A DNA stretch of 64,000 nucleotides from NCBI GenBank assembly GCA_958295725.1, contig OY282368.1, positions 2,192,001 through 2,256,000 of the forward strand, given 5' to 3'. A program made the translations under genes and the position numbers. Shown piece by piece: positions 51,766-63,558 of the stretch. Under the pieces are notes generated by a model. The model was given only the letters and a program-made list of their open reading frames with translations, made no database searches and was not told the origin of the DNA. Every line of letters begins with the position of its first letter. The stretch's first letter is position 1. The DNA is from an uncultured Alphaproteobacteria bacterium (GTDB lineage Bacteria; Pseudomonadota; Alphaproteobacteria; UBA2966).

Positions 51766-52827
51766 ATGCACGTGGCCGAACGCAAGACGGCCCTGGTGAT
51801 CGGGGCGACGGGGATTATCGGCGGCAACCTCGTCCGGCATCTCGACACGCTCGACGACTGGAACGTCGTCGGGCTCTCGCGCGGCGCCCCCGACGTCCCC
51901 TCGCGGATGGAGCACATCGCCGTCGACCTGCTCGATCCGGACGATTGCGAGGCGAAGCTGGGCGGCCTCGACCGCGTGACGCACATCTTCTTCGCCGGCT
52001 ACACGGACCGGCCCACCTGGGCCGAACAGGACCCGCCCAACACGGCCCTGCTGGTCAATGCCGTGCGGGCCGTCGCGCCCGCCGCCGCGGGGCTGCGCCA
52101 CGTCTGCCTGGCCCAGGGCACCAAATACTACGGCGCCCACCTCGGTCCCTGGACCACCCCGGCGCGCGAGACCGACCCCACCCACATGGGCCCCAACTTC
52201 TACGTCAGCCAGCAGCGCTTCCTGGAATCCGAGAGCGCCGGCAAGGACTGGTCGTGGTCGAGCCTGCGGCCCCCGATCGTCTGCGGCTGGTCGCTCGGCA
52301 AGCCCTTCAACCTCGTCAACCTCATCGCCGCCTACGCCATCATCTCCAGAGAACTCGGGCTGCCGCTGCGCTATCCGGGCAAGGAGCGCGCCTATCGCAC
52401 CGTTGTCCAGGCGGTGGATGCCGGCCTGCTGGTCCGGTTCATGACCTGGCTGGCGACGACGCCGGAGTGCGCGGACCGGGGGTTCAACATCTCCAACGGC
52501 GACGTGTTCCGCTGGGCGGACCTGTGGCCCCGGATCGCCGCCTACTTCGGCATGGAGGCGGGGCCCGTCCAGACCGTCGACCTGACCCGCACGATGGCCG
52601 ACAAGGGCCCCCTGTGGGAGCGGATCGTCGCCAAATACGGGCTCGCGCCCCACCGGATCGAGGACATCGCCCACTGGCCCTTCGGCGATTACATGCTGTC
52701 CACGGACTACGACATGATCTCCGACTACAACCGGATCCGCCGCCTCGGGTTCCACGAATTCGTCGACACGGGCGACATGTTTCTTCGCATGTTCGACGAG
52801 TTGCGGGAGAAGCGCGTCATCCCCTGA
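51766..52827 (+). CDS. Extended SDR of the PRISE (progesterone 5-beta-reductase-like) type
   Basis: The protein has 353 residues. Rossmann motif G-A-T-G-I-I-G-G-N-L, an N-F-Y segment replacing the usual catalytic Y-x-x-x-K (G-P-N-F-Y-V-S-Q-Q), and S-L-R-P-P-I-V-C-G fit the PRISE/iridoid-synthase-like group, which reduces enones of terpenoids and steroids. That is of interest next to a linalool dehydratase-like enzyme. The GAGGGGG sequence abuts the ATG at 51766; GTG 51772 has better spacing and may be the true start. Confidence 0.75.
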   Translation: MHVAERKTALVIGATGIIGGNLVRHLDTLDDWNVVGLSRGAPDVPSRMEHIAVDLLDPDDCEAKLGGLDRVTHIFFAGYTDRPTWAEQDPPNTALLVNAVRAVAPAAAGLRHVCLAQGTKYYGAHLGPWTTPARETDPTHMGPNFYVSQQRFLESESAGKDWSWSSLRPPIVCGWSLGKPFNLVNLIAAYAIISRELGLPLRYPGKERAYRTVVQAVDAGLLVRFMTWLATTPECADRGFNISNGDVFRWADLWPRIAAYFGMEAGPVQTVDLTRTMADKGPLWERIVAKYGLAPHRIEDIAHWPFGDYMLSTDYDMISDYNRIRRLGFHEFVDTGDMFLRMFDELREKRVIP

Positions 52828-52919
52828 TCCCTCGACGGCGCCGCCCGGCGCGTCGGCCGGCTTGCCAGTCTTCCCGCCCGGGTCTAACGTGCCGCGATGC
52901 TTGCGCGGGCGAGGTGGCG

Positions 52920-53771
52920 ATGCGCGAAAGCTACGACAGAATCGACGTCCGGCCGGTGTCCGGCGCGTTGGGCGCGGAGATCCACGGCATCGACGTGGCG
53001 CGCCCCCTCGACAACGAGACGGTTTCCGAGCTCCACGACGCGTGGCTGGACCATCTCGTACTGTTCTTCCACGACCAGCACCTGACGCCCGACCGGCACA
53101 AGGACTTCGCCCGCCGCTTCGGCGAGCTCCACGTCCACCCGCTGACGGAGGGGATGCCGGGACATCCGGAAATCGTCGAAGTCGTGAAGGAGCCGGGCGA
53201 ACATCACAACTGGGGAGACGGCTGGCACACCGACCTGCCGTTCCTGGAGGAACCCCCGATGGGGTCCGTGCTGTACGCGCGCGAGGTCCCGCCGTTCAGC
53301 GGCGACACGCAGTTCGCCAACATGTACCTGGCCTACGAGACGCTGTCGGACGCCATGAAGGGCGTGCTCGACGGCCTCAGGTGCGTCTTCAGGGGAGGCG
53401 TCGGCAACTACGACCGCTTCGAGGGAATGCGGGCGATCTCGGACGCGGGAGACTTCGTCGCCGCGCACCCCGTCGTCCGCGCGCACCCCGTCACCGGCAG
53501 GAAGTCGCTCTACCTGCACCGCAAGAACGGCAACGCCATCGAAGGCATGAGCGCCGGGGAAAGCGCGGCCATCCTCGACTTCCTGCACGACCACGCCGAA
53601 AACCCCGATTTCGCGTGCCGCTTCCGGTGGCGGGCGAACTCGGTCGCCATGTGGGACAACCGCTGCGTCCAGCACAGGGTCAGCGCCGATTATTTCCATT
53701 CCGAACGGGGATTCCGTCCCGGCCGCAGACACCTTCACCGGGTGACGATGAAGGGGGATCGGCCGTTCTGA
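52920..53771 (+). CDS. TauD/TfdA-family dioxygenase, second copy
   Basis: The protein has 283 residues. Iron ligands are in G-W-H-T-D-L-P-F (His ~102, Asp ~104) and in L-H-R-V-T-M near 276; the following basic residues may hold 2-oxoglutarate. It is only distantly similar to the dioxygenase at 16762. It is followed 44 bases later by a binding protein gene on the same strand, so import and oxidation of one compound may be linked. Confidence 0.85.
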   Translation: MRESYDRIDVRPVSGALGAEIHGIDVARPLDNETVSELHDAWLDHLVLFFHDQHLTPDRHKDFARRFGELHVHPLTEGMPGHPEIVEVVKEPGEHHNWGDGWHTDLPFLEEPPMGSVLYAREVPPFSGDTQFANMYLAYETLSDAMKGVLDGLRCVFRGGVGNYDRFEGMRAISDAGDFVAAHPVVRAHPVTGRKSLYLHRKNGNAIEGMSAGESAAILDFLHDHAENPDFACRFRWRANSVAMWDNRCVQHRVSADYFHSERGFRPGRRHLHRVTMKGDRPF

Positions 53772-53815
53772 ACCCCGGAGCCATTTCTTCAATCCAGACT
53801 CGAGGAGGCTGAATC

Positions 53816-54895
53816 ATGAAACGTTCGAGCACTTTCAAGGCGATCTTCGCCGGGGCGTCGCTCTCCGCCGCCGCGGTCGCGCTCCCCTTCGGCGCGGCGT
53901 CGGCCGGCGAATTCGACGGCATGACGCTGCGGGTCGGCACCTGGGGCGGCTCGTGGCGCAAGGTCCAGGAGGACCACATCGTTCCGCAACTCGCCGCCAG
54001 GGGCCTGAAGATCGAGTACGTCACCGCGAGTCCGCACGACAACCTCGCCAAGCTCGTGGCCGCGCGAGGCCGCGACGTCCCCATCGACGTCATGGAGGTC
54101 GGAGAGCCGCTGCTGCCGTCGATCGCCGAGGGCGGTTACGCCGCGAAGATCGACCACGGCCTCGTGCCCAACAAGGCGCACATGCCGGCCGCGCTTTACG
54201 ACGACCGCAAGTTCGTGACGCTGGCCAGCCAGTACGGCGTCTGCTACGAGAAACGGAAGTTCGCGGAGAACGGCATTCCGGTGCCCCGGACTTTCCAGGA
54301 CCTGGTGCACCCCAAGCTCAAGCGGAAGCTGTCGTTCCCCGACATCACCTCGGGCCCGGGCCTGAGCAACGTGGCGATGGTGGCCTACGCGGCGGGCGGC
54401 AGCGTCGACGATATCGAGCCGGGCCTCGACCTGATCAGGCGGATCGATCCGTTCACCTACTGGAAGCGCGGCAGCGCCAACGTGACCCATCTGGAGACCG
54501 GCGACATCTATGCCGCGGTCGTGCACGCGGGCTGGTGCGTGCGCATGAAGAACGCGGGCCTCGACGTGTCGATGGCCTATCCCAGGATCACCGACGAGTA
54601 CACGGGCGCCGCGACGTACACCCTGATGATCGTGGTCAACGGGACCGGGGTTCCCGAGGCCGCGACGGCCTATCTGAACGAGTATCTGGGCGAGGAGTTC
54701 CAGTTCCAGCTCGCCAAGCAGACCGGCGTGGTTCCGGTGAACGGGAACGCGATCGCGCGGATGCGAAAGGAGCCGCTGTTGCAGGAGATGATGATCCTGG
54801 ACACCGCCGGGATGGAGCGGATCCTCACATTCGACTTCAGCCGGATCGACATCAGCGACTGGACCGACCGGTGGTCGCGGACCGTCGGCAACTGA
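53816..54895 (+). CDS. Periplasmic substrate-binding protein, spermidine/putrescine type
   Basis: The protein has 359 residues. The signal peptide (F-K-A-I-F-A-G-A-S-L-S-A-A-A-V-A-L-P-F) ends at A-S-A-G-E-F. The mature start L-R-V-G-T-W-G-G-S-W and Q-Y-G-V-C-Y-E-K resemble the binding protein at 266. Membrane and ATPase genes of the importer are not adjacent, so it may share a permease elsewhere. AGGAGG occurs just before the start. Confidence 0.85.
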   Translation: MKRSSTFKAIFAGASLSAAAVALPFGAASAGEFDGMTLRVGTWGGSWRKVQEDHIVPQLAARGLKIEYVTASPHDNLAKLVAARGRDVPIDVMEVGEPLLPSIAEGGYAAKIDHGLVPNKAHMPAALYDDRKFVTLASQYGVCYEKRKFAENGIPVPRTFQDLVHPKLKRKLSFPDITSGPGLSNVAMVAYAAGGSVDDIEPGLDLIRRIDPFTYWKRGSANVTHLETGDIYAAVVHAGWCVRMKNAGLDVSMAYPRITDEYTGAATYTLMIVVNGTGVPEAATAYLNEYLGEEFQFQLAKQTGVVPVNGNAIARMRKEPLLQEMMILDTAGMERILTFDFSRIDISDWTDRWSRTVGN

Positions 54896-55025
54896 AGCCG
54901 GGACGGCGCATCACGGCCATGCCGGCGACCCGTCCGGGGACGATGCCGTAACGATCGAGGGCGGGCTCCGGCTCGCCGCCGGACGCCGCCGCCAGGGCGG
55001 CCGCGCTCCCCCGTCCGGCGCCGGC

Positions 55026-55664
55026 CTACGAAGAATCCCGGACGCTGGGGCGGCCGGCCACGTCCTCGTACCAGCGCGCCACGTTGGGCCGGTCGTCGGG
55101 GATCGGGACCCCGGTCCGGTCCGCCAGCAGGATCATGAAATAGCCGGTGATGTCGGCGATGGAGAAGGTCCCGCCGGCGAGGAAACGGCCGTCGGAGAGT
55201 TGCGCGTCGAGCCGTTCGAGCAGGATCAGCAGCATGTCCCGGCCCCGCTCGGCGATCTCGGGAAACTGGACGAGATCGTTCCGGGTGCCGGGGACGACCC
55301 GCCCCCGGAAGGCCGGATCCGCGTTGCGCAGCGAATGCATGACGGGCAGGTAGCCGTCCAGCTCGACCCGGCGGTTCCACATGTCGATGAGGGCGCGTTC
55401 CCTGGGATCGCGGCCCATCAGGGAGGGCGCCGGATGGAGCTCCTCCAGGTAGCGGCAGATGGAGACCGACTCGCCGATGCACGTCCCGTCGTCGAGCTCG
55501 AGAAAGGGAACGACGGCGAAGGGGTTCATGGAGCGATAGGGCTCCTCGAACATCGCGCCGTCGCGCACCTTCACCTCGACGACCGGTATCTCGAGCCTCT
55601 TCTCCGCCATGAACACGCGGACTCGCCGGGCGTTGGGGGCGAGAGCGAAATCGTAGAGCTTCAT
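55026..55664 (-). CDS. Glutathione S-transferase family protein
   Basis: The protein has 212 residues. The N-terminal thioredoxin-like domain reads K-L-Y-D-F-A-L-A-P-N-A-R-R-V-R-V-F and contains the glutathione-binding E-S-V-S-I-C-R-Y-L. The C-terminal helical domain has the G-x-F-S-I-A-D-I-x capping motif (G-T-F-S-I-A-D-I-T). It is transcribed away from the linalool dehydratase-like gene, sharing a 194-base divergent region. Confidence 0.85.
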   Translation of the reverse strand: MKLYDFALAPNARRVRVFMAEKRLEIPVVEVKVRDGAMFEEPYRSMNPFAVVPFLELDDGTCIGESVSICRYLEELHPAPSLMGRDPRERALIDMWNRRVELDGYLPVMHSLRNADPAFRGRVVPGTRNDLVQFPEIAERGRDMLLILLERLDAQLSDGRFLAGGTFSIADITGYFMILLADRTGVPIPDDRPNVARWYEDVAGRPSVRDSS

Positions 55665-55858
55665 GCGCGTCGTCTCCTCGAACGTTGCGACCGACCGGGA
55701 AGGCCACTCTACCCGCGACCCGAAAGCCGCGCCAGTTCCCGCGCCGTCCCCGGGAGCGGCCCCGTCCCGGGACGGAACGAGGACGGACGATTGCCATCCG
55801 GGGATTGCCCGCTACACTCGGCGTCGCGAGTCGGGACGATCGAAGGGCGGAGGGCATC

Positions 55859-57406
55859 ATGCCGGCGACCGTGGCGGGCTATCCGGCGCTGACGGAGCGC
55901 AGCCGCGGCTGGCTCCGCTATCTCCACCGCAAGGCGACGACCCCGGACAACTGGGACAGGGACGGACGGCCCCATCCCCACTGGGACAACGTCAGCGGCG
56001 CGCCGCGGCGCTCCTGGCATCGTTTCGACCTGTTCGAGTCGAGCTACGCCATGGGCCTCATGTGCGACACCACGCCGGCGTGGCGCGAGGTCTACGGCGC
56101 CGTCCTCGACGAGCTCGCGTTCCGCTATACGGGCTGGTGGGCGGCGGAGGACTGGCTGACGCAGATCGGCGAGGATCCGCGCCGGGACCGGTATCCGGAG
56201 GAATGGTACGAGGCCTGGATCCCCCCGTTCCTGCGCGGCCGCTACGACACGCCCGGCTGGACCGCCGACGGGGTCGAGCCCTGGGGCCGCCAGATCGACC
56301 CCATCCGGGCCGACGGCGCGCTGTGGCTCAAGGGGAACTTCCTCATCGTCCTCGGGCTGCACAAGTACGTCACCGGCGACGACAAGTGGAACGCGCCCTT
56401 CGAGACGATCCGCGACGGCGAGAACACCTTCACCTGGACCTATTCGGGCGTCGCCGGGCACCTCGCCCGACAGTGGTCGTCGCGGCCCGAGGGGTGCCAC
56501 TGCGAGAACACCAAGATCTGGCCCATATGACTGGCCCCCGCGGGCCTCGGTCTGAGGCTCCACGACATCAATCACCGCACGGACCTGCACCTGGCCTTCG
56601 ACAACTGGTGGGAGTACGCCTTGCGCCACTACATACCCGTGCGGGACGGCAAGGTCGGCGACTGGTACACCAACTACTACGACCCGATCATCGACTACAA
56701 CCACAAGGTCGGCATGAGGCCCGACGGCGGCGGGTCGTTCTTCTGGGGCAACTACGACAAGTTCCTCATGGTTCTCGGGCTGGCCCCGCAGCGCCGCGAC
56801 GTGGCGCGTCAGTTCTACGATTCGGCCGCCGAGTGCCTGGGCTGGCGATCGCTCGAGCCCGCCGACGAGCCGCCCGGCAACCCGCGGGCCACGCTCTACG
56901 GCCTGGCCTTCGCCCGCGAGTTCGGCGACGACGCGATCCACGCCAAGCTCAAGGCCTGCGCCGAGGAACGCCACGAACCGACGCTCGACCCCGAGACCCT
57001 GGAATTCACCTGGGGGTTCGGCCTGAACGAGCCGCATCCGCGCGGCCAGTTCAACGCCTCGGCCGCCATGGCGGAAGCGATCGGCGAAGGGGCGTGGTGG
57101 CGGCTGTTCAACGAGCCCGACCTGCGCAAGTTCGTCGATCCGACGGTCCGCGGCGTCGACTTCCCGACCGTCTGCCCGAGCCAGGCGGTCTACGACGAGG
57201 CCCGGCGCATACTCGTCGTGGCGACCGACGCCGGGGTTCCGGCGGCGCGGGGCCGGCCCACGACGTTCCGCGTGACCAACGTGAATCCGAAGTCCTGCAC
57301 GGTCATCGTCGACGGCGAGAAGAGCGACGACTGGCGCGAGATCGACGGCGATATCGAGGTCTCGACCACCGTCGGCGAACACACGTTCCTGTTCAGGCCG
57401 GCCTGA
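55859..57406 (+). CDS. Linalool dehydratase/isomerase-like protein, predicted selenoprotein (Sec224, TGA 56528-56530)
   Basis: Read through one in-frame TGA, the frame encodes 515 residues. Both halves are in the same frame and form one Ldi-family protein (W-D-N-V-S-G-A-P-R-R-S-W-H-R near residue 42; F-D-N-W-W-E-Y-A-L after the TGA). The TGA is codon 224 in C-E-N-T-K-I-W-P-I-[TGA], nine residues after Cys215. In LinD, as I recall, active-site Cys171 and Cys180 have that same spacing. A SECIS-like hairpin follows. GGAGG lies five bases before the ATG. Predicted role: (de)hydration or isomerisation of an alkenol with a selenolate at the active site. The alternative, a nonsense mutation, is less likely because the downstream 292 codons are intact. 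Confidence 0.8.
56531..56560 (+). promoter_or_regulatory. Putative bacterial SECIS element after TGA224
   Basis: Stem GGGCCTC (56542-56548) pairs with GAGGCTC (56554-56560), seven pairs including one G-U, around the loop GGTCT (56549-56553). The loop occupies positions +19 to +23 after the UGA. In E. coli fdhF the codons GCA GGT CTG place GGUCU at the same positions, and its G and U are the bases read by SelB. Confidence 0.75.
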
Positions 57407-57487
57407 TCCCGTTCTCCGGGGGCGGCCCCGGGCCGGCCGAAGCCGCCCGGCGTTCCGCGCCGCCCGCCCGGATGTCGCCGTGGCCGG

Positions 57488-58729
57488 TCAGGCGGCGCTT
57501 CCCTCGGGCGCGGCGCGCTCGATCGGGCGTTCGTCGATGGGGTAGTGGAGCGCCGCCGCGAGGAGACCGAGGGCGATGGCGATCCACCACGCGGCGTCGT
57601 AGGAACCCGTCGTGTCGAACAGGCGTCCGCCCAGCCACGCGCCGAGGAACGCGCCGCTCTGGTGGCTGAGGAACACGATGCCGGACAGGGTCCCCATGTA
57701 TTGGGGACCGAAGATCTGGGCGACCAGGGACGTCGTCAAGGGCACGGCGCTGAACCACACCACGCCGATGGCCGCGCCGAACGCCAGGGCGCCGACGACG
57801 GATATGGGCGACAGGACGAATACCGAGATGACGACGGCGCGGGAGAGGTACAGCAGCGTCAGGACGCCCTTCTTGCTGAAACGATCGCCCAGCACGCCGA
57901 TGGCGATCGAGCCGGCGATGTTGACGAGGCCGATGATGGCCAGCGTCCAGGCGCCGACTTCCGCCGACAGGCCGCGGTCGGCCACGTAGGCCGGCAGATG
58001 GGTGGCGATGAAGACGACCTGGAACCCGCAGACGAAGAATCCGGCGGTAAGCAGAAGGTAACCGCGGTGGCGCGCGGCCTCCGCCATCGCGCTCCGGAAC
58101 CGCTGCGGAGAGACCTGCGGCGTCGCGGCGCGGCCGGTGACGGCGCCTCCCATCGGCAGCATCACGAGCGCGACGATCCCCAGCAGGACGAAAGCCGTTT
58201 GCCAGCCGTAGGCAGCGAGGAAGGCCTGACCGATCGGCACCATGGCGAACTGGCCGAAGGATCCGGCGGCCGAGATGATGCCCAGCGCCAGGGTCCGCCG
58301 CTGCGGCGCCACGGCCCGCGCCGCCGCCGCGTACACGATCCACAGCCCGCAACCGGCGTTGCCCAGCCCGACGAGGACGCCCACCGTGAGGTGCGCGGCC
58401 GCCGGGGTCGAGGACCACGACATGAGCGCGACGCCGGCGGCGTACATGAGGGCGCCGACGACGAGGACCCGGCCCGAGCCGAAGCGGTCGGCGAGCATTC
58501 CGGCGAAGGGTTGGGCCGCGCCCCACAGGAAGCTCGAGAAGGCGATGGAGAACGCGAAGATCTCGCGGCCCCAGCCGAGGTCGGCGGAGACGGGTTGCAG
58601 GAAGACCCCGAACGAGGATCGGATGCCGAAGGACAACGCCGCGATCACGCTCGCCGCGGCGATGAGAATGACGATCCGCCTGCCGAAAGCGGCGGACGGC
58701 GCCGGAGGCATGGAGCCATGCGGTTTCAT
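57488..58729 (-). CDS. MFS transporter (monocarboxylate/oxalate-formate type)
   Basis: The protein has 413 residues and about twelve hydrophobic segments. The loop motif D-R-F-G-S-G-R in the first half and G-D-R-F-S-K-K in the second are the two A-motifs of the major facilitator superfamily. R-S-S-F-G-V-F near residue 40 recalls the oxalate:formate antiporter group. It probably carries small organic acids. It faces the linalool dehydratase-like gene end to end. Confidence 0.85.
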   Translation of the reverse strand: MKPHGSMPPAPSAAFGRRIVILIAAASVIAALSFGIRSSFGVFLQPVSADLGWGREIFAFSIAFSSFLWGAAQPFAGMLADRFGSGRVLVVGALMYAAGVALMSWSSTPAAAHLTVGVLVGLGNAGCGLWIVYAAAARAVAPQRRTLALGIISAAGSFGQFAMVPIGQAFLAAYGWQTAFVLLGIVALVMLPMGGAVTGRAATPQVSPQRFRSAMAEAARHRGYLLLTAGFFVCGFQVVFIATHLPAYVADRGLSAEVGAWTLAIIGLVNIAGSIAIGVLGDRFSKKGVLTLLYLSRAVVISVFVLSPISVVGALAFGAAIGVVWFSAVPLTTSLVAQIFGPQYMGTLSGIVFLSHQSGAFLGAWLGGRLFDTTGSYDAAWWIAIALGLLAAALHYPIDERPIERAAPEGSAA

Positions 58730-58817
58730 GGGGCCTCAATAGGTGCAATGCGCCGGCTTGTAAACCGCCGCGGCGGTCTCCGGCACGCCGGTCGCGCCGG
58801 TCGCGCCACTGTCGCGA

Positions 58818-60068
58818 TTACCGCATGAGCGACCTCAGCCGGGAGAGGAGAAGGAGCAGCGCGGCGCAGATGGCGGTCATCATGTGGAGGGCGGCGGCGA
58901 AGCCGCCGGTCAGGTCGTGGAGCGCCCCCACGAGGACCGGACCGAGGACGCCGCCGACCTCGGCCGCGGAGAAGAACAGGCCGCCGGCCGCGCCGGAGTT
59001 CCGCGAATCCACGCCCGGCGACTCCACGAGCACGAGAACGGCGACGGCCATCATGGCGCCCCGCGCGACGCCCTGGCACGCGAGCCCGACGACCAGCAAC
59101 GGCCCGGCGGACAGGTGCAGCAGCATCGTGGCGGCGCCGGCCGCGAGGAACAGCAGGCCCAGGACCGGGAGGCGCCGGTCCTCCGTCGCCAGACGGGGTA
59201 TCGTCAGCGCCGCGAAGATACCGACGGCCGTCGGGATCGACGCCCAGTAACCGGCGACGGCGGCGTTCATCCCGCCGGCGCGCAGGATCTCGGGAAGCCA
59301 GTTGTTGAGGCCGTGGTTGAAGACGAACATGCCGACGCTCATCGCCAGGACGAGGCGCACGACGGGCTCCGACAGGAGCTCCCGGAACACCTCGATCTGG
59401 GGGCGCCTGGGCTCTCCGGCGATCCGCCGCTCCATCGCGCGGCTGGCCGGGTGGGCCGAGACGAGCGCCCACAGCGCGCCGCAGAGCGCGGCGACGCCCG
59501 CGTAGGCGAACAGGACGGCCCGCCAGTCCCCTCCGTGGAGCGGCATCATGACGCTGTTGGTGAGCGACAGGGCCGCTATGTTGCCGACCGCCGGCCCCGA
59601 GATGTAGATGCCCATGGCGACGCCCCGTTCCCTGCCCTCGAACCAGAGGCTCATCACCTTCGGCGCGCCGATCGAGATCAGCGGCCCGCCGACCCCGAAC
59701 ACGGCGACGGCGAGGAACATCGACAGGTAGTCCTCGGCGACGCCGCGCAGGACCCCCGACAGCACGATCAGGACCGTGCACAACATGAGGGAGCGGCGCG
59801 GCCCGACGCGGTCGATCAGGGCGCCGGCGGGGATCGACGAGGCGATGTAGACCAGGGGCCAGGCGCCCAGTACGACGCCCATGGCGCCGTGGGAGATTCC
59901 GAGTTCGGCCGTGATCGGGGCCACGAGCGGCGCCATCGACGCGACGAAGAGGCCGAACGAGAAATACACCAGCCAGACGCCGGCCAGCATGGCCCATCGG
60001 TAGGGGTGCGCGGGTGCGCGGAAGGGGCGCGCGCCCGCGTCGGGCGCGCCGCCGTCGTCGGCCGTCAT
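58818..60068 (-). CDS. MFS transporter, second
   Basis: The protein has 416 residues from ATG 60068; a longer start at 60104 adds 12 residues. About twelve hydrophobic segments and the A-motif-like D-R-V-G-P-R-R are present, and S-L-W-F-E-G-R-E-R-G-V-A-M-G-I after helix 4 is typical of the anion/nitrate-like and sugar-phosphate-like MFS groups. The central loop (~205-220) is basic. Substrate not assignable; placement beside a Rieske dioxygenase suggests an aromatic or other carboxylic acid. Confidence 0.83.
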   Translation of the reverse strand: MTADDGGAPDAGARPFRAPAHPYRWAMLAGVWLVYFSFGLFVASMAPLVAPITAELGISHGAMGVVLGAWPLVYIASSIPAGALIDRVGPRRSLMLCTVLIVLSGVLRGVAEDYLSMFLAVAVFGVGGPLISIGAPKVMSLWFEGRERGVAMGIYISGPAVGNIAALSLTNSVMMPLHGGDWRAVLFAYAGVAALCGALWALVSAHPASRAMERRIAGEPRRPQIEVFRELLSEPVVRLVLAMSVGMFVFNHGLNNWLPEILRAGGMNAAVAGYWASIPTAVGIFAALTIPRLATEDRRLPVLGLLFLAAGAATMLLHLSAGPLLVVGLACQGVARGAMMAVAVLVLVESPGVDSRNSGAAGGLFFSAAEVGGVLGPVLVGALHDLTGGFAAALHMMTAICAALLLLLSRLRSLMR

Positions 60069-60331
60069 GGCGTCGTGAGTACAGAAGGCCATGAGCGCGG
60101 GCAAGCGGACAGGACGAGACCGGTCGGCCCGCCCGGACGTCCGTTCATGCGCGGACGGACGCGCGTCGAGGCGGAAAACGGCCCTTGTCCCGCGAGTCGC
60201 GCTTCGGATATGTTCTGGTTGCCGATGGACCGCGTACGGTCGTCTCGTCGAAGCCCGCCGGGTGGACGCCGTGGCCGATGCCGCCGTCGCGGGCGCCGTT
60301 CGGGCCGCCGAGAAAGTTGGAGGAGCTGCCG

Positions 60332-61690
60332 ATGTCGGATATCGAGGTTCGCGACCTGGTCAGGACCGACGAGGGGCTGATCAGCCGCCGGATCTTCTTC
60401 GATCCGGATATCTACCGCGCCGAGCTGGAGAACGTCTTCGCCAAGTGCTGGCTCTTTCTCGCGCACGAGAGCCAGATCCCCGACCCCGGGGACTACACCA
60501 CCAACTACATGGGCGAGGATCCGGTGCTGATCTGGCGCGGCATGGACGGCGAGGTCCGGGCGTTCCTCAACTCCTGCCGCCACCGGGGTATGCGGGTCTG
60601 CCGCACGGACGCCGGCAACGCGCGCCAGTTCGCCTGTCCCTTCCACGGCTGGACCTACGGCGCCGACGGTTCGCTCAAGACGGTGCCGAGCTTCGAAGAC
60701 GGCTACTTCGGGGATCTCGACAAGGAGAACTGGGGCCTGCACCGGGTGCCCAGGCTCGCGACCTACGGCGGATTCATCTTCGGCAACTGGGACGAGGACG
60801 CCGAGAGCCTCGACGACTACCTCGGCAACGCGCGCTGGTATCTCGACATCCTGATCGAGCGGTCGCTGGGGGGCATCGAGGTGATCCCGGGGCAGCAGCG
60901 CTACTCGGTGGACGGCAACTGGAAGATCGCGTCGGAGAACTTCGTCGGCGACTCCTACCACCTCGCCCACAGCCACGGGTCGGCCTACGCGCTGGACATC
61001 CGGCAGCTCAACCCGGCGAATCCGCTGCTCTACCGCAAGGGCAAGCTGACCTACTACGACATCGCCATGGACAACGGCCACGGCTTCACCCAGTTCACCC
61101 TCTCCGGCGAACGGGTCGAGGTCGACCGTATGCTGGCCGAGGAGATGGGCCCCGAAATCTCCGAGTACGTCGAGGAATGCCACGCCCGGCTGCTCCGGCT
61201 TTCGGAAGCCCAGGCCAAGGTCCACGCGCTTCCGTTCGGCAACCTGTTCCCGAACTTCTCGATCAACGACTTCAGCGTGCTGCGCCCGGTCGGCCTGTAC
61301 CTGTGGGTGCCGAAGGGCCCGGGCCGTCTCGAGGTGTGGCAATGGGCGGCCACCGACCGGGACGCCCCGCAAGCGGTCAAGGACATCGCCCGGATCGACT
61401 TCACGCGGTTCCAGTCGACGTCCGGCATCGTCGGTCCGGACGACACCGAGAACTTCGAGCAGGTCACGCAGTCGACCGCCGGAGTGATCGGACAGCGCCT
61501 CGACTTCAACTACCAGATGACCCTGAAACGGAAGCCCGTCGAGGGGTTCGACGACGTTCCCGGGCACATCTCGACCTACGTGTCGGAGGAAAACCAGCGG
61601 CTGTTCTACGAGCACTGGGCGGACTTGATGGACGGCGGCGGAAGGGCACGGTTGATCCATGACAAGCCCAGACTTGCAGTACACGGTTGA
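60332..61690 (+). CDS. Rieske aromatic-ring hydroxylating dioxygenase, alpha subunit
   Basis: The protein has 452 residues. The Rieske centre is C82-x-H84 and C102-x-x-H105 (S-C-R-H-R-G and C-P-F-H-G-W). The mononuclear iron site lies in E-N-F-V-G-D-S-Y-H-L-A-H-S-H, with D-x-x-H-x-x-x-H in the family arrangement. It would insert both oxygen atoms into an aromatic ring, fed by a ferredoxin and reductase not present here. ATG 60332 follows GGAGGAG. The gene overlaps the beta-subunit gene by 32 bases. Confidence 0.9.
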   Translation: MSDIEVRDLVRTDEGLISRRIFFDPDIYRAELENVFAKCWLFLAHESQIPDPGDYTTNYMGEDPVLIWRGMDGEVRAFLNSCRHRGMRVCRTDAGNARQFACPFHGWTYGADGSLKTVPSFEDGYFGDLDKENWGLHRVPRLATYGGFIFGNWDEDAESLDDYLGNARWYLDILIERSLGGIEVIPGQQRYSVDGNWKIASENFVGDSYHLAHSHGSAYALDIRQLNPANPLLYRKGKLTYYDIAMDNGHGFTQFTLSGERVEVDRMLAEEMGPEISEYVEECHARLLRLSEAQAKVHALPFGNLFPNFSINDFSVLRPVGLYLWVPKGPGRLEVWQWAATDRDAPQAVKDIARIDFTRFQSTSGIVGPDDTENFEQVTQSTAGVIGQRLDFNYQMTLKRKPVEGFDDVPGHISTYVSEENQRLFYEHWADLMDGGGRARLIHDKPRLAVHG

Positions 61691-62168
61691 GCGGTTCCTC
61701 TATCGCGAGGTCCGCCTGCTGTCGGAGGGGCGCTTCGAGGAGTGGCTCGATCTCTTCACCGACGACGCGCGCTACCTGATGCCCATCCGGGAAACGACGG
61801 CGGACCGGGAGGATTCCGAGCGCGGCGAGGGATTCCTGCCGCACGTCGACGACGACAAGGCCTTCATGAAGGCGCGCGTGCAGCGCCTTCGCCACCGTCT
61901 GGCGCACGCGGAGCAGCCGCCCTCGCGCCTGCGCTACTTCGTCTCCAACGTCGAGGTCGACGAGGCCGGGGACGGCGGGAGCGATGGGGAGCTCGACGTG
62001 CGCTGCAACCTGATGGTCTACCAGTCGCGACTGGAGCGGACGGAGAAGATCTTCGTCGGCCGCCGGGAAGACCGGCTCCGGGCCGGGAACGGCGGCTACC
62101 GGATCGCCGGACGCAAGGTCGTTCTCGACCAGTCGCTGCTGCCCCGCAGCATCACCATCTTCTTCTAG
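61659..62168 (+). CDS. Ring-hydroxylating dioxygenase, beta subunit (NTF2-like)
   Basis: The protein has 169 residues. F-L-Y-R-E-V-R-L-L near the start, E-W-L-D-L-F-T-D-D-A-R-Y-L-M-P and the C-terminal G-R-K-V-V-L-D-Q-S are the standard elements of the small subunit, which has a structural role in the alpha3-beta3 enzyme. It starts inside the alpha gene, so translation is coupled. Confidence 0.9.
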   Translation: MTSPDLQYTVERFLYREVRLLSEGRFEEWLDLFTDDARYLMPIRETTADREDSERGEGFLPHVDDDKAFMKARVQRLRHRLAHAEQPPSRLRYFVSNVEVDEAGDGGSDGELDVRCNLMVYQSRLERTEKIFVGRREDRLRAGNGGYRIAGRKVVLDQSLLPRSITIFF

Positions 62169-62174
62169 AGCCGG

Positions 62175-62642
62175 CTACCGGTTCGATTCCCAGAAGGAGA
62201 TCAGCTTGATGGCGTCCGCGGCGTCGAGGCGGCCGAGGGGACCGGCGGCGTAGGAAGAGGCGCGGACCGTACCGTCCCCGAGCAAGATGAACTCCGCGGG
62301 CTGGACGAATTCGCGGTCGCCCTCCCACAGGGCGCCAACCGCCCGGCCCTGCTCGCGGGTCACGCCGTGGGCGATGGGGAACGAGACGCCGGCGGCGACT
62401 TCCCCGGCGTGTCGGGCGCCGTCCACGCTGCCGGCGACGACGACCCTGGCGTCGATCGCCTCGAGCGCCGATTCATGAGCTTCCCAGTCGTCCAACTGAC
62501 GACGGCAGTAGGGTCACCAGTGACCGCGATAGAAGAGGACGACGTTGTAGCCGGCCCCGAGGGCGTCCGGGAGGGAGAGGGTTCCGGCGTCGCCCGCGAG
62601 ATCGAGCGTCAACCCGGGAAACGGATCGCCGATATCGAGCAT
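62175..62642 (-). CDS. AhpC/TSA-family redoxin, predicted selenoprotein (Sec43, TGA 62514-62516)
   Basis: From ATG 62642 (AGGTGA upstream) the frame gives M-L-D-I-G-D-P-F-P-G-L-T-L-D-L, a typical peroxiredoxin start. At codon 43 it reads V-L-F-Y-R-G-H-W-[TGA]-P-Y-C-R-R-Q-L; the family motif is R-G-x-W-C-P-Y-C, so the TGA replaces the first, reactive Cys. After it the frame continues uninterrupted to 155 residues. A SECIS-like hairpin follows. The enzyme would be a selenium-dependent redoxin reducing peroxides or disulfides. The alternative start at 62495 makes a truncated protein without the active site and is rejected. Confidence 0.85.
62487..62503 (-). promoter_or_regulatory. Putative bacterial SECIS element after TGA43
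   Basis: On the minus strand GTCGTC pairs perfectly with GACGAC (six pairs) around AGTTG. The loop is at +17 to +21 after the UGA and has the G-U expected for SelB recognition at +18/+19, inside the usual spacing window for bacterial SECIS loops. Confidence 0.65.
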
Positions 62643-62679
62643 GTCGTTCACCTGGGATCGGGAGAGGCTGGACTTCCGT

Positions 62680-62709
62680 CCGTCCGGCCGATGCTAGACG
62701 GTCGGACGG
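62680..62709. promoter_or_regulatory. Inverted repeat in the divergent gap between redoxin and DUF1028 genes
   Basis: CCGTCCG (62680-62686) and CGGACGG (62703-62709) are complementary with a 16-base spacer, 38 bases upstream of the redoxin start. They could be an operator for either gene. No clear -35/-10 was found. Confidence 0.25.
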
Positions 62710-62877
62710 CCCAGGTAAACGGGCCGCGTCTCGCATACGCCCGAACCGCGAAGCCGGACGGCACGCGCGATGGAGGGTCTCCCTGTCATCGGGTGGGTTT
62801 AGCGCGTACAACCGGGGGTGTCGGAGCGGGACCGGGCCCCGATGGACGATGCCGTCGGCAAGGAGAAGGATAGCGCC

Positions 62878-63558
62878 ATGACGTTCTCGGTCGCCGGACA
62901 CTGCGCACGCACGGGCATGTTCGGGGTCTGCGTGGCGACGTCGAGCCTCGCCGTCGGCGCCCGCTGCTCCTGGGTCAAGGCCGGGACCGGCGCCGCCCTG
63001 ATCCAGAACTACGCCGACCCCGGCCTCGGGCCCGTCGCCCTCCGGGCGTTGGCGGATGGCCGCGACGCGCGGGCGACCGTCGACCACCTGGTGTCGGTGG
63101 GGCGCGGCATCGCCTGGCGCCAGATCATGATCGTGGATCGCGCGGGCGCCACGGCCCACTACGACGGCGAGAAGTGCCTCGGCATCCATCTCTGCGCCGA
63201 GGGCGCCCACTGCGTCGCCGGCGGGAACCTGCTCTCCAGCGCGGACGTGCCCCGGGCCACGGCGGACGGGTTCGACGGCGCGGACACGGACCTGCACCTC
63301 GGCGAGCGCCTTCTGCGGGCGCTGGAGGCGGGACTCGCGGCGGGCGGCGAGGCGAACGCGGAGCGCTCCGCCCACCTCCTGGTGGCGGACGAGCTCGACT
63401 GGCCGCTCATCGACCTGCGGGTCGATCTGCACGAGATGCCGGTCGCCGGGCTGCGCGGGGCATGGGAGGCGTTCGAGCCGGAGGCCGGCGGCTTCGTCGC
63501 CCGCGCCGTCGATCCCGACAACGCCCCCCGGCACGCGATCCCGGGCCGGGAGGGGTAG
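62878..63558 (+). CDS. DUF1028 (Ntn-hydrolase-like) protein
   Basis: The protein has 226 residues from ATG 62878. M-T-F-S-V-A-G-H-C-A-R-T-G at the start, then A-T-S-S-L-A-V-G-A-R and G-A-A-L-I-Q-N-Y-A-D-P-G-L-G-P are DUF1028 hallmarks. The family has an Ntn-hydrolase fold and is often encoded with amino-acid or peptide catabolic genes; the substrate is not known to me. The earlier start at 62818 adds 20 charged residues and is less likely, since AAGGAGAAGGA precedes 62878. Confidence 0.85.
   Translation: MTFSVAGHCARTGMFGVCVATSSLAVGARCSWVKAGTGAALIQNYADPGLGPVALRALADGRDARATVDHLVSVGRGIAWRQIMIVDRAGATAHYDGEKCLGIHLCAEGAHCVAGGNLLSSADVPRATADGFDGADTDLHLGERLLRALEAGLAAGGEANAERSAHLLVADELDWPLIDLRVDLHEMPVAGLRGAWEAFEPEAGGFVARAVDPDNAPRHAIPGREG

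Follow-up and report, generated by a model that had tools for sequence, protein, structure and literature searches.

Closest described systems

Enzymes of the linalool dehydratase/isomerase type (EC 4.2.1.127) act on myrcene, linalool and geraniol, are pentameric, are exported to the periplasm and contain a disulfide between Cys49 and Cys102. The enzyme of Castellaniella defragrans, LinD (Ldi, PF18566), has 371-397 residues and depends on two active-site cysteines, both of which are described as essential in PMC6600392; the mutants C171A and C180A are named in PDB titles. The locus described here resembles LinD in fold and in the positions of the cysteine pair. It also resembles the gene of the unrelated molybdenum oxidoreductase FdhF of E. 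coli, whose SECIS presents a GGUCU loop equally far behind the UGA on a stem of different sequence.

Table 1 of PMC13188914, as far as that paper was available, comprises 119 selenoprotein families and subfamilies. Among the predicted selenoproteins given there are arsenite methyltransferase, methylated-DNA-protein-cysteine methyltransferase, a MerB-like lyase and MoeB, which judged by their names alone are enzymes outside the thioredoxin type with Sec in place of Cys, as proposed here; unlike the window protein, none of the four is an Ldi-family hydro-lyase/isomerase. Neither PF18566 nor a linalool entry was found in the available table, and a term search for 'linalool' had no hit in the accessible text of PMC13188914, PMC12013277 and PMC9312934. 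In a set of 5.39 million open papers linalool dehydratase does not occur together with selenocysteine or selenoprotein, in agreement with the sequence-only reading, which knew of no selenoprotein in this family. The novelty is bounded accordingly, because the search covers open papers. NCBIfam holds no model matching the window protein.

An Ldi-family gene with an in-frame TGA

The window is a stretch of 64,000 nucleotides from the genome of an uncultured alphaproteobacterium. Its relevant features are:

55859..57406, + strand, Ldi-family gene (PF18566) for a 515-residue read-through protein, terminal stop TGA at 57404-57406
56501..56503, + strand, TGC, Cys215, aligned with LinD Cys171
56528..56530, + strand, in-frame TGA, predicted Sec codon 224, aligned with LinD Cys180
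56542..56560, + strand, predicted SECIS stem-loop, stem 56542-56548 with 56554-56560, loop GGUCU at 56549-56553
51766-63555, neighbours of the gene: PRISE-like reductase, TauD dioxygenase, solute-binding protein, GST, two MFS transporters
51766-63555, neighbours continued: Rieske ring-hydroxylating alpha/beta pair, DUF1028 protein

Translation of the frame 55859-57406 confirmed that two open halves are separated by the TGA at 56528-56530 alone, which is the single internal stop, and no frameshift was found along the gene. The true stop is the TGA at 57404-57406, therefore the read-through product would have 515 residues with Cys215 and Sec224. The protein is matched by the Pfam Ldi profile with 40.3 bits (curated cut-off 26.1) and LinD is its best fold match; it differs from LinD in its greater length and in an extra C-terminal beta domain beyond the LinD-like fold. 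Differences between the window gene and two orthologues of the same genus lie mostly at third codon positions, before the TGA as well as behind it; 3' of it the substitutions at codon positions 1/2/3 amount to 26/18/55, 29/21/80 and 34/18/107.

The cysteine columns

Among 5.8 billion proteins searched there were 347 matches, the best 120 of which were used for column counts. The TGA column, expected to be Cys in most homologues, is Cys in 120 of the 120 listed, and so is column 215. Such a database holds genes with the TGA as two pieces, hence this set can include only TGA-free forms. In the alignment Cys215 and Sec224 coincide with the LinD cysteines (170/179 in 5hlr, 171/180 in the 5g1u series), which bears out the proposed pair nine residues apart; the second member of the LinD-type active-site pair 171/180 is thus the predicted Sec. 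The pair is not shared by every member of the wider family: in a more distant Ldi relative of 39% identity (L088, genome G335) Ser and His occupy the two columns.

Other active-site positions agree less well with LinD. His129 of LinD corresponds to Asn160, and among the 120 homologues listed this column is F, W, D or N and never His, the register being read by eye from the alignment. Asp57-x5-Tyr63 is conserved and has the spacing of LinD Asp39/Tyr45, yet the profile alignment left these residues unpaired with Asp39/Tyr45. At positions which are nearly invariant in the homologues the window protein has Asp137 for Asn, Arg144 for Leu, Ala154 for Asn, Trp156 for Phe and Arg240 for Gly. Because of these replacements it may act on another substrate than its paralogues do.

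Recurrence of the TGA at codon 224

Further genomes with TGA at this codon, as anticipated in the sequence-only reading, do exist. A collection that represents each of 84,980 species by a single genome was scanned with the degenerate pattern CENTK[I/V]WPx plus a TGA directly behind it, which hit 57 stretches (L010-L066) at 58 places. All 57 stretches are titled MAG, and they are assigned to Acidimicrobiia, Gammaproteobacteria, Alphaproteobacteria, Chloroflexi, Myxococcales, Entotheonella and others. Viral contigs scanned with the same pattern gave no match; plasmids contain two Streptomyces relatives with 39.7% identity.

The genome of the window contains three TGA-type Ldi genes, and more are present in two genomes of the same genus (61 genomes surveyed, own and relatives). 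The two further paralogues in the own genome, L074 (G000:C1:1146269-1147771) and L075 (471941-473458), each have an identity of about 61-62% with the window protein. The survey returned 17 match rows, 11 with TGA, five without stop (three of them short fragments) and one with TAG; this sole TAG belongs to a remnant of 43 residues, and TAA does not occur among the rows. Some of the same-genus genes are loci already contained in the set of 57 stretches, with identical bases around the codon. Among 385 genomes of the window's class matches occur in four, the own genome with TGA and three others without stop. G064 is titled as an Acidimicrobiaceae genome; of 296 genomes in its class five matched, three of them with TGA, and in its phylum two of 396 genomes matched, both with TGA and both already known. 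Cys forms with DNA were few across these surveys. In one genome (G002, L031) two neighbouring TGA-type Ldi genes lie on opposite strands.

The recurrence is also mirrored by the protein database. Among the 120 N-terminal-half relatives listed (the best 120 of 231), 95 stop exactly at residue 223, including the window's own fragment (P0122).

The hairpin behind the TGA

The hairpin was analysed in 60 distinct genes, namely 57 pattern loci and the three of the own genome; L030, which has an N in the codon before its TGA, was left out. Counted from the T of TGA, the GGUCU loop occupies bases 22-26. Its identity to the E. coli fdhF loop in sequence and position was verified: GGTCT stands at the equal offset in fdhF, the comparison piece being matched at 100% identity in fdhF genes. 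All 59 distinct TGA genes that could be read keep loop and offset (CGGTCTG in 58, CGGTATG in one), one more being cut by a contig end. The codon for Gly231 is GGT in 60 of 60 TGA genes, whereas only 21.6% of 1315 Gly codons further down are GGT. These two regularities speak for more than a chance nonsense mutation, as had been argued from the single sequence.

The seven-pair stem drawn from the window alone is upheld in part: the hairpin is conserved, but the outermost pair fails in 14 of 55 distinct sequences and the next pair is always G-U. Compensatory variants such as GGCCTC/GAGGCT, GGTCTC/GAGACT, GGGCTC/GGGCCT and GGCTTC/GAAGCT were observed. Covariation was evaluated for 58 sequences (55 distinct) against 500 shuffles and slid registers. 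In the stem 96.4% of the cells are paired, 34 cells carry a change on each side and the covariation score amounts to 0.277, values each reached by none of the 500 shuffles; slid registers reach at most 7 both-side-changed cells and a score of 0.096. The remaining two of the five stem measures are within the range of the shuffles, with 3 pairs changed on both sides (25/500) and 8 further pair types (353/500).

Folding energy is no argument for the hairpin. The folded piece is ordinary, being equalled or surpassed in stability by 35 of 200 shuffles (60 of 200 for a 45-base piece), and a rival hairpin is preferred in two of the pieces folded alone. Energy was therefore dropped as evidence in favour of conservation and covariation. 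A search of 56400-56700 against Rfam gave no match. The hairpin sequence is missing from four Cys genes for which DNA was found (L070, L071, L084, L089) and present in the TGA genes L085, L086, L087 and L090, of which only L087 is new. An RNA structure conserved 3' of the UGA, as in bacterial selenoproteins, is accordingly found here, while its energy alone is ordinary.

Selenocysteine machinery

The genome of the window encodes everything for which the sequence-only reading wanted a search: tRNA-Sec (75.1 bits, anticodon TCA), selB (415.7 bits, cut-off 242.25), selA (516.3, cut-off 267.9) and selD (291.9, cut-off 125) form one cluster at contig positions 1872613-1878488. SelA was found in 46 of 48 searched genomes carrying a TGA gene and tRNA-Sec exceeded the cut-off in 41 of 50, 39 of these with more than 60 bits. 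Only one of the 48 genomes searched for both, G104, has a TGA gene and neither SelA nor tRNA-Sec. As a control, SelA was over the cut-off in 135 of 198 genomes from the class of G064; it is also encoded in three of four Cys-form genomes, in the genome of L088 and in four of four family mates that gave no match in the survey of 61 genomes. Since SelA is common in genomes without a TGA gene, the machinery is present as required, but its presence discriminates weakly.

Sec and Cys forms, and a predicted second Sec site

A FastTree tree was calculated from 51 Sec genes (nine of the 60 were dropped as cut by contig ends) and 79 of the 120 Cys proteins, with Sec and the 12 following residues masked in the alignment. 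It requires three changes of state, which are forced by the starred branches. The Cys forms closest to the window protein (P0002-P0006) branch from within a clade of Sec genes. This suggests that Sec was exchanged for Cys in that part of the tree, or that there were several gains.

The remaining N-terminal fragments draw attention to the first cysteine. Eighteen of the 120 listed (within P0163-P0223) stop exactly at residue 214 and seven stop elsewhere; the former hint at Sec for the first cysteine in further genes. In the phylum of G085 two of five genomes, both titled Candidatus Entotheonella, have genes with two TGAs. One of them (L099, genome G102, - strand) carries TGA at codons 215 and 224 in an otherwise open frame of 510 codons and shows the usual hairpin 3' of the second TGA; its residue 63 is His instead of Tyr. 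The other (L100, genome G085) has both TGAs, yet it is a shortened, decayed-looking copy. We predict from these frames that in at least one lineage both thiols are Sec.

Genomic neighbourhood

The neighbours of the window gene would fit a role in catabolism, but their arrangement is not conserved at other loci. Recurring neighbour clusters cover up to eight loci, mainly from one group of close Acidimicrobiia, and encode a zinc alcohol dehydrogenase, an FMO-like protein, a 3-hydroxyisobutyrate-type dehydrogenase, an acyl-CoA dehydrogenase and a member of the phosphotriesterase family. We also looked for a shared pathway around 31 loci: among 96 of the 99 frames that a G+C rule selected, no Pfam family occurs in more than four of the 96.

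How the TGA is probably read

We consider it highly probable (about 0.85) that the TGA at 56528 is read as Sec by the SelB/tRNA-Sec system of the genome with the help of the hairpin, giving a 515-residue Ldi-family enzyme. The selenoprotein interpretation of the sequence-only reading is thereby supported. The Cys column, the hairpin with its compensatory changes, the Sec machinery and the recurrence in several phyla are documented at the sequence level, and selenium in the active site is predicted because a UGA at a conserved Cys column comes with a conserved hairpin across several phyla. SelB would bind the hairpin directly 3' of the TGA and Sec would be inserted at position 224, where it would replace one of the two cysteines essential in LinD.

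A nonsense mutation or a sequencing error in a dying gene could be suspected from a single TGA in one frame, as MAGs can contain errors and L100 is a shortened copy. The codon is, on the other hand, shared by 57 other stretches and the three own genes, the hairpin covaries, the C-terminal half keeps its third-position bias, and among the 17 match rows the only TAG lies in the 43-residue remnant and TAA is absent, so that the probability of this explanation is negligible. Some other bacteria read TGA as another amino acid. Such a code change, or a functional 223-residue product ending at the stop, is very improbable here: the column is Cys and never Trp, Arg or Gly in the 120 homologues listed, the terminal stop of the window gene is itself TGA, a full set of sel genes and a SECIS-like hairpin are present, and the half behind the TGA is conserved. 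We rejected nonsense mutation, sequencing error and code change on the grounds of recurrence, conserved column, hairpin and sel genes.

More weight is due to the idea that the protein is a selenoprotein in which Sec is a redox device, either as a Sec224-Cys215 selenenylsulfide that switches or protects the enzyme or because the protein belongs to the oxidoreductases instead of the hydro-lyases/isomerases. Redox functions are ascribed to most selenoproteins (PMC13188914), LinD is oxygen-sensitive and requires both active-site cysteines in the reduced state (PMC6013536 and PMC6600392), and His129 of LinD is not conserved. The fold and the cysteine pair are nevertheless those of LinD, whose cysteines serve (de)hydration, no gene for a redox partner recurs beside the Ldi gene, and both cysteines are predicted to be Sec in L099. 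We regard the redox device as unlikely.

If the protein is a selenoprotein, Sec224 is rather probably the working residue of an Ldi-type hydro-lyase/isomerase. Together with Cys215 it could move protons, or attack an alkene carbon, when an alkenol is (de)hydrated or isomerised, and a selenol, ionised at neutral pH, might act faster than a thiol or be more easily rescued from oxidation. We infer selenolate catalysis of alkenol (de)hydration with reserve, given Asn160 in place of LinD His129, the loss of both cysteines in the distant relative L088 and a neighbourhood that is not conserved and shows no pathway. The chances are about evenly balanced that these genes form a family of non-redox selenoenzymes, Ldi-type hydro-lyases/isomerases with Sec at one catalytic thiol in many bacteria and at both in Entotheonella (U-x8-U), where one SECIS would serve two UGAs 27 bases apart.

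If true, many Ldi-family genes stand halved in the databases, given that 95 of the 120 fragments listed stop right before the Sec codon. Whereas the selenoproteins known so far are mostly regarded as redox proteins, here a recurrent, SECIS-marked Sec would stand at an essential thiol position of a cofactor-free hydro-lyase/isomerase. The role of selenium in proton-transfer or covalent catalysis would then become directly testable, because close Cys forms exist and LinD has solved structures and cysteine mutants.
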